NCBI GenBank assembly: GCA_005880795.1 | Contig: VBGP01000020.1 | Coordinates: 1 to 48,441 of the forward strand | DNA: 48,441 bases | From: Chloroflexota bacterium | Lineage (GTDB): Bacteria > Chloroflexota > Dormibacteria > Dormibacterales > Dormibacteraceae | Direction: 5' to 3' | In this document: one piece after another, positions 4,333 to 37,741 of the stretch | Position numbering within the stretch: the stretch's first letter is position 1 | Layout: each line of letters opens with the position of its first letter | Notes under the pieces: model-generated | Seen by the model: the letters and a program-made list of their open reading frames with translations, nothing else | What the model was told of the DNA's origin: nothing | Database searches by the model: none | Position numbers and translations under genes: made by a program

Positions 4333-5691
4333 CTAGCTCGCTTTCCATGACGGACACAGGGCAAAGCTCGCGGTCGTGGGATCGCCCGCCTTGGCGTCGC
4401 ACTGATTGCCCTTGATCTCGTTGACCATCTGAAGCGGCATCAGCAAGTCGTCGCCTTTGAGGTTCGTCACGTCCTTCAGAACCGGGAACGGATAGGTGCC
4501 GCCGGAGCTTGTCGTTGTACCGGTGGTCTCGCCGACGTTGGCCTGCAGCTCGTCGGAGCGGATCGTGATCTTGTATCCACGCAGGCTGTCGAACGTGTGG
4601 CCACTGACCTGCTTGATGACCTGGTCCGCGTCGAAGCTCTTCGCCGCGTTCGCGGCCTGTGCCCAGAGCATGAACGCGTCGTAGTCCATGACCGCCCAGT
4701 CGGACGGGTACTCGTTGTTGTACTTCGCGCGGTAGCGGCTGATGAAGTCGGTGAGCCTCGCGTTGTTGGTCTGGAGCGCGAAGAACGGAGCGCGCATGTA
4801 CGCGTGCATCCCCTCCGGGTACTGGGAGCCGAGGGAGTTCAGCTCGTCCACCGAGACCAGCGTCGTCATCGGGTACTTGACGAAGAACTGCGGGTCGACC
4901 GCCAGCGCCTGCTTGATGAAGTTGATCTGGTCGGCGGCGAAGATGTTGGAGTAGACGAGGTCAGGCTTCGCGGCCTGGATGGCGTTGATGGTGGAGTCCC
5001 AGCGTGGGTTGGTCGGAAACGGGACGTACCACGTGCTGGGATCGTTCACGATTTGCGTGCTCGAGTTGGCCTTCTTCAAGGCCGCCACAAAGGCGTTGGT
5101 CTCCGAGATTCCGAACAGGTACTTAGGCGAGACGATGAAAATCTTGCCTACGTTCAGTTTCGCCGCGAGCCGGCCCGCGGCAGTGCCTTCCATGTAGGTG
5201 TTGGGGACGATCGACACCCAGTAGGGGTTGACGATGTCGGGCTGCATGGTCAGCTGCCAGCTGTTGCAGGTGGCGTCGATGGTGATGACCTTGTTCTGCT
5301 TTGCGATCGGGCTTTCAGCCAGGCACTGAGCGGAGGTCACCGAGCCCATCAGGGCGACCACGTTGTCCTGAAGGATCATGTTCTTTGTGTTGCTCACCGC
5401 CTGCGGGACGGTTGTGCCGTCGTCCTGGATGTCCATCTCGATCTTGTAGCCGTTGACGCCGCCCTTGGCGTTGATGTCGTCCGCGGCGAGCTGCAGCGAC
5501 TGGCTGACCGCGTGACCGTAGAGAGCCGACTGGCCGGTCAACGGCGCCGAGTAGCCGACCTTTTTCGTGCCCTTGAAGCTTTGGGACTGGTTGCCGGAGG
5601 GCTGCCCGCCGCAGGCGGCGACGACGACCGTCACGGCCAGGGCTAGCGCCACCCAAACGAGTGGCCTGACGCTGCGCGGTACCAAGGTCAT
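4333..5691 (-). CDS. ABC transporter substrate-binding lipoprotein (LivK / Peripla_BP_6 family)
   Basis: A 452-residue secreted binding protein that delivers substrate to the LivHM channel. The first 26 residues form a lipoprotein signal peptide ending in VVVAAC, with Cys27 as the lipid-modified residue. The mature part has the type-I periplasmic-binding fold start VGYSAPLTGQSALYG and the region GSVTSAQCLAESPIAKQ. The ATG is fixed by a strong Shine-Dalgarno sequence, GGGGAGGAAT, directly upstream; the frame remains open far upstream but without family similarity. It is the first liv gene after a 9-base-pair hairpin that separates it from the quinone oxidoreductase gene. Its ligand cannot be read from the sequence. 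Confidence 0.95.
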   Translation of the reverse strand: MTLVPRSVRPLVWVALALAVTVVVAACGGQPSGNQSQSFKGTKKVGYSAPLTGQSALYGHAVSQSLQLAADDINAKGGVNGYKIEMDIQDDGTTVPQAVSNTKNMILQDNVVALMGSVTSAQCLAESPIAKQNKVITIDATCNSWQLTMQPDIVNPYWVSIVPNTYMEGTAAGRLAAKLNVGKIFIVSPKYLFGISETNAFVAALKKANSSTQIVNDPSTWYVPFPTNPRWDSTINAIQAAKPDLVYSNIFAADQINFIKQALAVDPQFFVKYPMTTLVSVDELNSLGSQYPEGMHAYMRAPFFALQTNNARLTDFISRYRAKYNNEYPSDWAVMDYDAFMLWAQAANAAKSFDADQVIKQVSGHTFDSLRGYKITIRSDELQANVGETTGTTTSSGGTYPFPVLKDVTNLKGDDLLMPLQMVNEIKGNQCDAKAGDPTTASFALCPSWKAS

Positions 5692-5778
5692 ATTCCTCCC
5701 CTGCTGGTCGCGGGGACGCCTTCTTGAGGCCGTTTCCGGCCGGTGCCCCCCAGCCACGATATGGTAGTTCGCGGTGCG

Positions 5779-5802
5779 CCAACCCGTCGAGATACGGGTT
5801 GG
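5779..5802 (-). terminator. Hairpin between the quinone oxidoreductase gene and the liv operon
   Basis: CCAACCCGT and ACGGGTTGG form a perfect 9-base-pair stem around a 6-base loop, 14 bases after the oxidoreductase stop on the minus strand. There is no T-run, so it could be a terminator of the U-less kind common in GC-rich bacteria, or an operator for the liv operon, which starts about 90 bases further on. Confidence 0.5.
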
Positions 5803-5816
5803 TCCGGGGGCGCCCT

Positions 5817-6815
5817 CTAGGCCCTTTCGACGGTGAGCACCGCCTTGCCGGTGGTCTTGCGCGAGGCGACCTCTTCCAGGACAGTTACAGCATCCGCAAG
5901 CGGAGCTTGGCGCCCGACGTGGGGGCGGATCTTTCCCGCCGCGTAGAGGGCAAACAAGGCTTTCGTGCACTCGGGGATCAGCTGCGGGGCCCGCTGGCGA
6001 TAGAGCCCCCAGTGCAGGCCGACGATCGAATAGTTCTTGATCAGGACGTGATTCGTCGCGATGGCCGGCACGCGTCCTGAGGTGAATCCCAGGACGATGA
6101 TGCGACCCTCGAAGGCGACACATTTGGTCGATCGATCGAACACGTCGCCGCCGACCGGGTCGTAGATGACGTCCGCTCCTTTGCCGTCGGTCGCCTCCTT
6201 GACCGCCGCCACGAAGTCCTCGTTCTTGTAGTTGATCGCGAGGTCGGCGCCCATCTCCCGGCACACGGCGACCTTGGCATCCGAGCCTGCCGTCGCGATC
6301 ACCCGAGCGCCGGCTGCTTTGGCAAGCTGGATCGCGGCGGTCCCGACGCCACCCGCGCCGCCGTGGACCAGGACCACCTCACCGGGCTGCAGCATGGCGC
6401 GGCGGTGGAGGCCGAACCAACCGGTCTGGTAGTTGATGAAGAAGGCGGCGGCCGCCTCGTAGGACATGCCATCCGGGATCTTCCGAACATCGCCTGGTTC
6501 GGCGTGGGTGACCTCGGCGTACCCGCCGCGGTGCAGGCCGTCTTGCGAGACGAGGGCAAACACCCGGTCTCCGGCACTCAACCCGCTTCCGGGCGGCGCG
6601 GCCTCGACATCGCCCCCCACCTCGGCTCCCAGGATGAACGGCAGCTCAGGCTTGACCTGATAGGTGCCGCCGATCTGGAGCAGGTCGAAGAAGTTAACCG
6701 CCGCGGCACGCACGCGGATCCGGACCAGGTCGTCGCTCATCGGCGACGGTTCGACATCCTCGAAATGAAGCTTGTCGGGCGTTCCCAGCTCGCGGACGAC
6801 CCAGGCCTTTGGCAT
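5817..6815 (-). CDS. NADPH:quinone oxidoreductase-like medium-chain dehydrogenase
   Basis: A 332-residue zinc-independent medium-chain dehydrogenase/reductase. The GroES-like N-terminal domain carries AAAVNFFDLLQIGG. The Rossmann domain carries the nucleotide motif VHGGAGGVGTAA at residues 150-161, the quinone-oxidoreductase form, and the Cys and His zinc ligands of alcohol dehydrogenases are absent. The C-terminal half contains YDPVGGDVFDRS, also typical of the group. The open frame continues about 100 codons upstream, but I start at ATG giving MPKAWVVRELG, which matches family N-termini. It is likely an NADPH-dependent reductase of quinones or enoyl compounds. A hairpin follows the gene, so it may be transcribed apart from liv. 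Confidence 0.92.
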   Translation of the reverse strand: MPKAWVVRELGTPDKLHFEDVEPSPMSDDLVRIRVRAAAVNFFDLLQIGGTYQVKPELPFILGAEVGGDVEAAPPGSGLSAGDRVFALVSQDGLHRGGYAEVTHAEPGDVRKIPDGMSYEAAAAFFINYQTGWFGLHRRAMLQPGEVVLVHGGAGGVGTAAIQLAKAAGARVIATAGSDAKVAVCREMGADLAINYKNEDFVAAVKEATDGKGADVIYDPVGGDVFDRSTKCVAFEGRIIVLGFTSGRVPAIATNHVLIKNYSIVGLHWGLYRQRAPQLIPECTKALFALYAAGKIRPHVGRQAPLADAVTVLEEVASRKTTGKAVLTVERA

Positions 6816-35223: not shown

Positions 35224-35487
35224 CTAAGACCCGTTGTGGTGCCGGCTGTCTTCCGGGTCCTGCCCGAGCAGCTGCGCCTGCAGGGCGAAGATGTCATCGA
35301 GCACGCGGTCGATGCGGCGACCCTCCAGCCTGTGGTCGGCGATGACCCCGGCACGCTCGAGATGCCGCCGCAGCGACGCGCCCAGCGGGCCATCGATGCG
35401 CACCTGCCCGCGGACCTGCGCCTCCTCGAGCAATTGAAGGCACCGGTCGAGGGCAATCTGCCTCGAGCGGTGCGCCCGGACGTTCAC
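35224..35487 (-). CDS. Small helical protein downstream of the Rieske gene, unknown
   Basis: An 87-residue protein with a largely helical composition (ALDRCLQLLEEAQVRGQV, then LGASLRRHLERAGVIAD and RIDRVLDDIFALQAQLLGQ). I recognise no family and no signal or membrane segment. Its GTG overlaps the Rieske stop as GTGA, so it is translated with it and the ECF sigma gene. A role in the same regulatory or redox unit is inferred from this coupling only. It ends 15 bases before metK. Confidence 0.65.
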   Translation of the reverse strand: MNVRAHRSRQIALDRCLQLLEEAQVRGQVRIDGPLGASLRRHLERAGVIADHRLEGRRIDRVLDDIFALQAQLLGQDPEDSRHHNGS

Positions 35488-36134
35488 TCCGTTCCCAGCA
35501 CCTCGATGCGTCCGGCGGTGGTGACGCGCACCTGCACCGGGTTGAGCGCAGGCAAGGCATAGCCGTCGGTCGGCTTGCCGTCCGGGTGGAAGGAGGCTGG
35601 ATGGCACGGGCACGCCAGGTGGGTGTTGCTGCGATCCCACCAGAGCTCGCACGGCAGGTGGGAGCAGATGGACGAGACCGCGGTCACCGTCTGGCCGCGC
35701 CGGAACAGGAACGCTCCGACGCCGCCGGCCTTCACGCGCTTGCCCTGGCCCTCCACGAGGTCGCTCATCGCGGCCACGTCGATCCAACGACCGTTGACCG
35801 GATCGATCGTGGCGCCCGCCACCGGCATGATGCCTGGCTGCGTGGCCCGGCCCAGCAGTGTCCCTCCCGCGACGCCCGCCGCCAGGCCAAGGCCGGCGAC
35901 CAGCGCGGCGCGGCGCGTCACCCGGTCTTGCTTCGGCTCCTGTTCCAGCAACGACGCGAGACTCTTCCGAAAAGCCGGGTGCATGCGCTGGGAGCCCTGG
36001 CGGGCCGCCGCCAGCCTCGCCGCCGCCGTGATCGCGCCCTTTTCCTCCGCGTCGCCACCGCGCAGCTTCAGACGGCGGCCGCGGAGCAGGTCGGAGACGA
36101 TCTTGTCGATCCGGTTCTCGCGCTTGCCGTTCAT
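35484..36134 (-). CDS. Membrane-anchored Rieske [2Fe-2S] protein coupled to an ECF sigma factor
   Basis: A 216-residue protein. Residues 1-72 are a charged, helical cytoplasmic part (IDKIVSDLLRGRRLKLRGG). A Tat-like or simple anchor segment follows at 74-95 (RRAALVAGLGLAAGVAGG). The C-terminal Rieske domain has box I CSHLPC (ligands Cys157, His159) and box II CPCHPAS (ligands Cys175, His178), with Cys162 and Cys177 as the disulfide pair of high-potential Rieske proteins. It overlaps the sigma gene upstream (ATGA) and the small gene downstream (GTGA). A long cytoplasmic N-terminus before the anchor is unusual for bc-type Rieske proteins and matches anti-sigma topology; that role is inference. 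Confidence 0.85.
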   Translation of the reverse strand: MNGKRENRIDKIVSDLLRGRRLKLRGGDAEEKGAITAAARLAAARQGSQRMHPAFRKSLASLLEQEPKQDRVTRRAALVAGLGLAAGVAGGTLLGRATQPGIMPVAGATIDPVNGRWIDVAAMSDLVEGQGKRVKAGGVGAFLFRRGQTVTAVSSICSHLPCELWWDRSNTHLACPCHPASFHPDGKPTDGYALPALNPVQVRVTTAGRIEVLGTE

Positions 36135-36658
36135 TCCGGGCGCACCTTTGCCGCCGCCCGCAGCGCGCGGAGCTGCATCACCTTGATGGCGCCGACCGTC
36201 GATTTCATTTCCGAGGCAACTTCCTTCAACGAATACCCGTGCAGGAAACGCAGCTCCAGGACGCGCCTGTAGTTGTCGGAGAGCTGGGCCAGGATCTGCT
36301 GGACCGTTTCCGTCCCTTCTTCTGATGGCGGCCCCAAGGCGATCGGCATGGCGAGGTCTTCGCGGAGCTCGGACTCAGAAAGCCCAAGGCGCGTGCTCCA
36401 GAAAGCGCCGAGCACCGACCGGGCCGTGGCGAAGAGGTATCCCCGGATGGCGCTTGCCGGTGCGCCCTCGCGAAGCCGGGGGATCGCCTTGAGCGCGACC
36501 TGCTGTGTGAGATCTTCGGCGTCTGCCCGGTTGCCAACTCGCGCGTAGATGAACGCGTAAACCAGCTCCAGTTCGTCGAGCGCGATGTCGGTCGCGCGCG
36601 CAGAGGTGGGAAGCTGCAGGACCTGGCCCGGCTCGGACGCCGGTTCTTCCGATGTCAT
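36131..36658 (-). CDS. ECF-type sigma-70 factor next to the Rieske gene
   Basis: A 175-residue ECF sigma factor. Region 2 includes YAFIYARVGNRADAEDLTQQ with VALKAIPRL. Region 4 includes LAQLSDNYRRVLELRFLHGY, then SLKEVASEMKSTVGAIKVMQ as the recognition helix. About 25 residues precede region 2. It overlaps the Rieske gene by ATGA and follows a 36-residue lipoprotein gene by 7 bases. Its target promoters cannot be predicted from this window alone; autoregulation through the upstream gene's promoter would be typical. Confidence 0.92.
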   Translation of the reverse strand: MTSEEPASEPGQVLQLPTSARATDIALDELELVYAFIYARVGNRADAEDLTQQVALKAIPRLREGAPASAIRGYLFATARSVLGAFWSTRLGLSESELREDLAMPIALGPPSEEGTETVQQILAQLSDNYRRVLELRFLHGYSLKEVASEMKSTVGAIKVMQLRALRAAAKVRPE

Positions 36659-36665
36659 GGCGCGG

Positions 36666-36776
36666 TTACGTGAACAGGTAGGGTTTGGGCGAAGGCGAAG
36701 GGGTTGCGGCCGACCCGCCGCCGCAAGCCATCGCGAAAACCGCGACTGCGGCCAGAGCGAACCATGCCCTTGGCAT
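36666..36776 (-). CDS. Micro-lipoprotein of 36 residues
   Basis: A 36-residue open frame with a complete lipoprotein signal: MPRAWFALAAVAVFAMAC, Cys18 in an AMAC lipobox, then a short GGGSAATPSPSPKPYLFT tail. The mature part is only 19 residues, Pro- and Ser-rich. It lies 7 bases before the sigma gene and follows the hairpin after the DUF4349 gene. No strong ribosome site is seen. It may be a genuine tiny lipoprotein or the worn start of a once longer one. Confidence 0.5.
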   Translation of the reverse strand: MPRAWFALAAVAVFAMACGGGSAATPSPSPKPYLFT

Positions 36777-36796
36777 TACCAGTGCAGGTTACTCGA

Positions 36797-36832: not shown

Positions 36833-37741
36833 TTACGCGTGTTTTGGCTGGGGCGTCCGCCGGCGGCGCCAGACCAGGAAACCGATCCCGGCCAACACCA
36901 GGAACGGACCGATCGCTCCGAGCCCGCTGACGAAGTAGTCGATCGTGGTCACGAAGTTGTGGGCGGCGCCGCTGAGGGCGGTTGCAAAGCCCCAGTTGTC
37001 CGAGGACGCGGCCTGTGCCGGGGCGCCGGTCTCGGCAATCGTCACGGACACGTTGCTGTACGAGGTGTTGTCGTCCAGGTACTTGATCTGACCCTTCAGC
37101 TGCTCGATCTGGGCGGTGATCTGGCCGATCTGGTTCTGGACCGCGATGATGTCGTTGATGTTCTGCGCCTTGGTCAGCAGGGCGAGCATCGCCGCGTGCT
37201 GGGCTTCGGCGTTGGCGAGGCGAGCGCGGAGGTCGACGTACTGAGCGCCGACGTCGGTGCCGGTTATGTGCTCGCTCTGCACCTTGCCGACTTTCGACAG
37301 CTGGTCGATGGTGTCGTCGAAGTGCGCCGCCGGGACCATGAAGCTGATCACGCCGGTACGAATCTGGCTGTTCTCAGAGCTGGTGGCGGGATTCGCCTGC
37401 GCGTCAGTCCCGGCGATGTAGCCACCCTCTGACTCGACCAGCGTGCGCACCTGCGTCAGCTTCGAGTCGAACAAACCGTTGCCGACCGTCATGCTCAGCT
37501 GCGCCTGCCGGATCACCGGCGGGCCGCTGAGGGCCGGAACCGTGTCGCCAGGCAGGGTGGTCGTGCCTCCTGTCGTTCCACTGGGCTGGCCGGCGGCCTT
37601 GGAGCCCTGGCCGCCACCCGACACGGGCTGCGAGAGCGAAGCGCCGCCGTTCGACGAGGTGGCTCCGCCGCCGGAAACACTCCCCCCGCCGCAGGCGGCC
37701 GCCGCCGCGAGGATGCTGACGATGACAAGGACCTTCTTCAT
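36833..37741 (-). CDS. DUF4349 lipoprotein
   Basis: A 302-residue envelope protein. The lipoprotein signal ends in AAAAAC with Cys17. A low-complexity linker rich in Gly, Ser and Thr follows (about 18-70), then the DUF4349 domain: IRQAQLSMTVGNGLFDSKL, GGYIAGTDAQANPATSS and ITGTDVGAQYVDLRARLANA. A coiled-coil region (about 165-225) includes NQIGQITAQIEQLKGQIKYL. A C-terminal membrane segment (about 272-290) ends in WRRRRTPQPK. DUF4349 proteins have no fixed function. AGGAGG lies about 10 bases before the ATG. The gene diverges from the ABC-F gene with a 73-base gap. Confidence 0.9.
   Translation of the reverse strand: MKKVLVIVSILAAAAACGGGSVSGGGATSSNGGASLSQPVSGGGQGSKAAGQPSGTTGGTTTLPGDTVPALSGPPVIRQAQLSMTVGNGLFDSKLTQVRTLVESEGGYIAGTDAQANPATSSENSQIRTGVISFMVPAAHFDDTIDQLSKVGKVQSEHITGTDVGAQYVDLRARLANAEAQHAAMLALLTKAQNINDIIAVQNQIGQITAQIEQLKGQIKYLDDNTSYSNVSVTIAETGAPAQAASSDNWGFATALSGAAHNFVTTIDYFVSGLGAIGPFLVLAGIGFLVWRRRRTPQPKHA

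Follow-up and report, generated by a model that had tools for sequence, protein, structure and literature searches.

An ECF sigma factor paired with a membrane Rieske protein in Chloroflexota and Actinomycetota: a candidate redox-responsive anti-sigma system

The operon and its proteins

The operon lies on the minus strand of the window (the whole stretch of 48,441 nucleotides that was analyzed). It runs from an ECF sigma gene (36131..36658, 175 residues) through the gene for a Rieske protein (35484..36134, 216 residues), the candidate membrane anti-sigma factor, to a third gene of 87 residues (35224..35487), with a metK-like gene downstream. The Rieske gene overlaps the sigma gene by ATGA and the third gene by GTGA. 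A DUF4349 lipoprotein gene (36833..37741, minus strand) is the upstream neighbor and keeps this place and orientation in most genomes of the window's family. The 87-residue protein, which matched no Pfam family, is also kept in most of these genomes, at about 60-98% identity. Re-reading the sequence bore out all coordinates, overlaps and residue numbers of an earlier sequence-only reading of this DNA.

Between the DUF4349 and sigma genes is a 36-residue lipoprotein-like frame (36666..36776, minus strand), which that reading took for a lipoprotein gene. Its position, 7 bases 5′ of the sigma start, was right; its status as a functional small lipoprotein was rejected. The frame is the remnant of a gene, now truncated, for a CHRD-like lipoprotein of about 150 residues (Pfam CHRD 9e-5, just below the cut-off); in relatives this gene is intact and lies between a promoter-like element and the sigma gene. 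Besides the window, the gene or its remnant was found in L004, L005, L010, L012, L013, L014, L018, L019, L023 and L024, and the copy in L021 also appears internally deleted.

The window sigma is an ECF sigma factor (group IV sigma-70) with regions 2 and 4 only: Sigma70_r2, Sigma70_r4 and Sigma70_r4_2 all scored above the Pfam cut-off, and TIGR02937 matched at 4.3e-17. Its best PDB chain was BldN (6dxo_A, 2.6e-11), and it gave a confident profile alignment with Streptomyces BldN. The BldN-family model TIGR02952 was among the top matches, at 62.5 bits against a curated cut-off of 206. The protein is related to the BldN family, not a member of it, and belongs to a distinct BldN-related group.

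The Rieske protein has three parts, all encoded on the minus strand. Residues 1-70 (35925..36134) form an N-terminal domain of three predicted helices, predicted to be cytoplasmic, which is the candidate anti-sigma domain (hereafter, the N-domain). A twin-arginine motif (RR74/75) and a hydrophobic segment follow at residues 74-95 (35850..35915), resembling a Tat-type signal anchor. Residues 115-212 (35499..35792) form the Rieske [2Fe-2S] domain, predicted to lie outside the membrane; Pfam Rieske (PF00355) matched at residues 117-193 with 4.8e-12. From the sequence and alignment, box I is C157-S-H159-L-P-C162 (35649..35666) and box II is C175-P-C177-H178 (35601..35612). All six of these cysteines and histidines were where the earlier reading had placed them, and they are invariant in a 46-sequence alignment. 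Its claim of a high-potential Rieske domain with the full set of ligands and a Cys162/Cys177 pair is confirmed by the boxes, the Pfam match and the alignment. The RR pair ahead of the hydrophobic segment is likewise invariant in the 46 sequences, which is consistent with Tat export, a route used by Rieske proteins elsewhere (PMC3623810).

AlphaFold2 placed the three N-terminal helices at residues 2-17, 29-45 and 53-65. The Rieske fold was confident (ten-residue block means of 88-98), while segment 69-105, which contains the anchor, was of low confidence. The predicted topology of a cytoplasmic domain, one anchor and an exported domain fits both the sequence and this model. The nearest PDB chain to the Rieske domain was 8hn2, and the nearest solved relatives were a Chlorobaculum Rieske protein, arsenite oxidase and Rieske ferredoxins.

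Pairing of the sigma and Rieske genes across two phyla

We searched for the Rieske protein in 61 related genomes. Most genomes of the window's family had full-length homologues; elsewhere in its class the homologues were weaker, at 34-38% identity. The sigma gene preceded the Rieske gene in all of the first 30 loci, most of which also had the 87-residue gene after the pair and the DUF4349 gene before it. In the more distant regions examined, an ECF gene stood immediately before the gene for the full-length protein whenever the contig extended that far, and matches to the Rieske domain only had none. A scan of named genomes, run with an alignment of six sequences, as one of 26 diverse sequences varied too much, found the pair in Mycobacterium, Mycolicibacterium, Nocardia, Streptomyces, Actinomadura, Pseudonocardia, Catenulispora, Frankia and its relatives, Dormibacterota and other Chloroflexi. 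Across Chloroflexota (the window's lineage, Dormibacterota) and Actinomycetota, the two genes stay paired at 30-40% identity.

The earlier reading had considered that homologues might occur mainly in bc-complex operons without a sigma gene. We found the opposite. An ECF gene lay directly upstream of 144 of the 146 Rieske open frames that carry the N-domain and of none of the 40 Rieske frames that lack it; both counts include near-identical and overlapping loci, and the 40 frames are a by-product of the searches rather than a designed sample. The two N-domain frames without a direct ECF neighbor are one tandem copy, seen in two overlapping loci, with an ECF gene in the same operon. Similarly, 29 Rieske loci without the N-domain, from Chlorobi, Arthrobacter, Bosea and others, had no ECF gene. 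There are 126 distinct pairs, and the genes overlap in most of them, with overlapping starts that are mostly ATGA or GTGA in both phyla. The pairing is far beyond chance.

Because of this genomic context and the scores of subunit models, we rejected the reading that the window protein is a bc/b6f-complex Rieske subunit: its best NCBIfam model reached 35.9 bits against a cut-off of 250, and its neighbors are the DUF4349, sigma, 87-residue and metK genes. It shares with the Rieske subunits of bc/b6f complexes and arsenite oxidase the fold, both boxes, the extra cysteine pair and a Tat-type anchor. It differs from them in its additional N-domain, its ECF linkage and its NCBIfam subunit scores, which fall far below cut-off.

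Seen from the sigma side, the group is sharply bounded: in a search over 61 genomes of the phylum, members scored at least 162 bits and the next ECFs at most 116. A Rieske partner adjoined 17 of the 21 members; the other four are in three genomes. Together, the genome-wide context of the N-domain frames and the composition of the sigma group strongly support the proposed sigma/anti-sigma pairing, which we regard as highly probable.

Several loci depart from the simple arrangement. Same-group ECFs without an adjoining Rieske gene were seen at L258, L259, L239/L262 and L242/L261; one genome contains two of these as well as a paired ECF. In L183/L184 (one genome), an ECF gene is followed by two tandem genes for Rieske anti-sigma candidates, of which the first encodes a protein whose initial helix is degenerate. 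L105, from Nocardia cerradoensis, has the order ECF-Rieske-ECF (4345-6339), in which the promoter-like element precedes the second ECF gene and the first ECF is divergent.

The Rieske boxes are nearly constant among the 126 pairs. Box II is CxCH in 125, the remaining one being frame-disrupted. The first histidine of box I is present in 119, and these, the window among them, have the high-potential combination of CxHxxC and CxCH. In six pairs, from two separate lineages, aspartate replaces this histidine, so a standard two-histidine cluster is not strictly required. These copies (L021, L023, L024, L025, L046 and L049, as well as L234) have box I sequences such as CSDLPC, CTDQGC and CTDVGC with an intact box II, and their sequences suggest a possibly altered Rieske cluster.

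The N-domain and a short-spaced promoter-like element

Searched with a profile of the N-domain by itself, 35 of 151 genomes of the phylum contained it. All 30 loci read from this search, the window included, had an ECF gene upstream, and a Rieske domain followed the N-domain in all but one, where the contig ends. In Actinomycetota, the distribution was patchy (5 of 198 sampled genomes). Where the N-domain occurs without a Rieske domain, it is only beside or fused to ECFs. In L042/L064, a stand-alone N-domain gene (L064:3489-3704, plus strand) lies between the ECF and Rieske genes. In L037/L063 and L035, a degenerate ECF carries the N-domain at its C-terminus, and the gene for this fusion immediately precedes an ordinary ECF-Rieske pair (L063:3708-4439, plus strand; L035:4228-5355, minus strand). 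Such a fusion is perhaps a self-inhibited or decoy sigma. AlphaFold modeled the L063 fusion at low confidence (pTM 0.40), too low for its interface to be used. Mean-field direct coupling analysis of the 126 sigma-Rieske pairs, an alignment too shallow to locate the interface (Neff 75), gave contacts that were not enriched in the N-domain.

The N-domain resembles no anti-sigma domain with which we compared it. The zinc (ZAS) motif Hx3Cx2C is absent and residues 1-72 of the window protein contain no cysteine, and a 31-member comparison with Pfam gave no family match, anti-sigma families included; the claim that the N-terminus has no standard zinc motif therefore held. A profile search of the PDB returned chance matches only (best E 0.07). 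Against the cytoplasmic domain of RsbN (an alignment of 30 RsbN sequences), hhalign gave 0.1-0.2%, compared with 99.4% for a positive control. With hhalign below 1% and no Pfam match, we detected neither RsbN homology nor membership of a Pfam anti-sigma family, and the view that this is not a known anti-sigma domain held. Two short membrane proteins encoded beside ECFs of other groups showed weak similarity to the N-domain (hhalign 60% and 24%).

These results set the system apart from its nearest parallels. In the RsbN-σBldN system of Streptomyces (ASDIII), a membrane-anchored anti-sigma factor is also encoded beside a related ECF; however, no homology between its cytoplasmic domain and the N-domain was detected, and the RsbN protein examined has no Rieske boxes. 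Class I anti-sigma domains (ASDI, including ZAS; PMC7406223) are likewise small, N-terminal, helical and cytoplasmic and belong to ECF-coupled genes, whereas the N-domain lacks Hx3Cx2C and any Pfam anti-sigma match; it may nevertheless be a divergent ASDI fold. Two anti-sigma factors, RsmA of S. coelicolor and RshA of M. tuberculosis, are reported to bind a [2Fe-2S] cluster, on which the binding of RsmA to its own sigma depends; RsmA is of the HATPase_c family with an HX3CX2S motif, and RshA is ZAS-type with cysteine ligands (PMC3427169). Neither is an exported Rieske domain, whereas the window protein would carry its cluster on a domain of its own, predicted to be external to the membrane.

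Upstream of the operon is a promoter-like element, GTAACCTGCACTGGTAATG (36774..36792, minus strand), present as a single copy in the window's genome. Its general form, GTAAC-N8-(C/G)(T/G)AT, is common to the two phyla and lies upstream of the sigma gene in many of the loci L031-L184. In 76 of the 126 pairs, GTAAC(C/T) followed by (C/G)(T/G)A occurred no more than 330 bases from the sigma domain; the expectation from dinucleotide shuffles was 1.1 pairs, and the reversed sequence gave 5. The spacing peaked sharply at 8 bases (44 pairs). In the window's family, the gene for the CHRD-like lipoprotein, or what remains of it, comes between the element and the sigma gene, so many of the apparently missing sites lie further upstream. 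The element also precedes nearby cupredoxin, DoxX, PAP2, Lipoprotein_15 and metallophosphoesterase genes. We infer that the paired sigma reads this element. Since ECF promoters usually have a spacing of 16-17 bases, which 8 bases does not fit, the element may instead belong to another regulator.

A proposed transmembrane switch

The gene pairing, the linkage of the N-domain to ECFs, the conservation of the cluster ligands and the RR pair, and the common promoter-like element are the observed basis of our model; from these, we infer binding and inhibition of the sigma, the membrane orientation, the signal and the release step. In this model, the N-domain of about 70 residues would hold the sigma inactive at the membrane, the Tat-type signal anchor would span the membrane, and the Rieske [2Fe-2S] domain outside would be the sensor. 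Oxidation or loss of the cluster, or breakage of the C162-C177 disulfide, would be the trigger; the signal would pass through the anchor or set off proteolysis, freeing the sigma. The freed sigma would transcribe its own operon and a few neighboring genes for exported proteins: the CHRD-like lipoprotein in the window's family, and cupredoxin, metallophosphoesterase, DoxX, PAP2 and Lipoprotein_15 proteins elsewhere. That redox sensing through the cluster or disulfide would release the sigma is suggested by the conserved ligands and by analogy. A sensor role for the Rieske domain seems to us likely, and the complete proposal of an ECF sigma and a membrane anti-sigma factor with an external Rieske sensor is, on balance, probable.

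The pairing could be right and the sensed quantity different. If the protein receives its cluster in the cytoplasm, ahead of export, unexported or apo protein might alter the hold of the N-domain on the sigma, and the system would report cofactor supply or Tat export, that is, Fe-S or Tat stress, rather than redox state outside. The invariant RR pair ahead of the hydrophobic segment and the status of Rieske proteins as Tat substrates (PMC3623810) suit this explanation, as do the Asp-for-His variants, which suggest drift in the exact redox properties of the cluster. We consider it unlikely, as the putative targets (cupredoxin, CHRD-like and DoxX proteins) are exported redox and envelope proteins, not Fe-S or Tat genes.

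It is more doubtful still that the Rieske protein is a plain electron carrier of an ECF-controlled operon, with the N-domain a non-regulatory tail and another protein inhibiting the sigma. Carrying electrons is what Rieske domains normally do, a cupredoxin gene adjoins in many Actinomycetota, and a second Rieske gene follows in L063. However, the N-domain tracks the ECF gene and is absent from ordinary Rieske proteins, its occurrences without a Rieske domain are confined to the company of ECFs, and we saw no other gene conserved next to the sigma across both phyla. That the N-domain binds the sigma but is needed for its activity, so that it acts as a chaperone or activator at the membrane and redox control runs in reverse, seems very improbable: genome context fits inhibitor and activator equally, but the analogy with other membrane proteins that are coupled to an ECF and have a small cytoplasmic domain favors an inhibitor, which such proteins typically are (PMC7406223, PMC8103513).

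We conclude that the sigma-Rieske pair is a real, widespread and apparently undescribed ECF/anti-sigma variant. Its novelty is provisional: no description of a Rieske protein in a sigma/anti-sigma system was found in the full-text literature, a scope outside which most subscription papers and the main ECF reclassification fall. Whether an external, electron-carrier type of Rieske sensor on an ECF anti-sigma factor, with a new sigma-binding domain, a small local regulon and a short-spaced promoter element in Chloroflexota and Actinomycetota, amounts to an undescribed class of transmembrane redox signaling is, in our judgment, evenly balanced.

How cells read the redox state or electron flow outside the cytoplasmic membrane is poorly understood. 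The system described here probably allows genes to be switched on according to the redox conditions on the outer side of the membrane. If the model is true, a Rieske center coupled to a sigma factor without intermediates would let cells read these conditions directly. The proposal gives a possible role to a domain absent from Pfam, can be tested in cultured environmental mycobacteria, Nocardia and Streptomyces, and would offer a two-gene redox switch.
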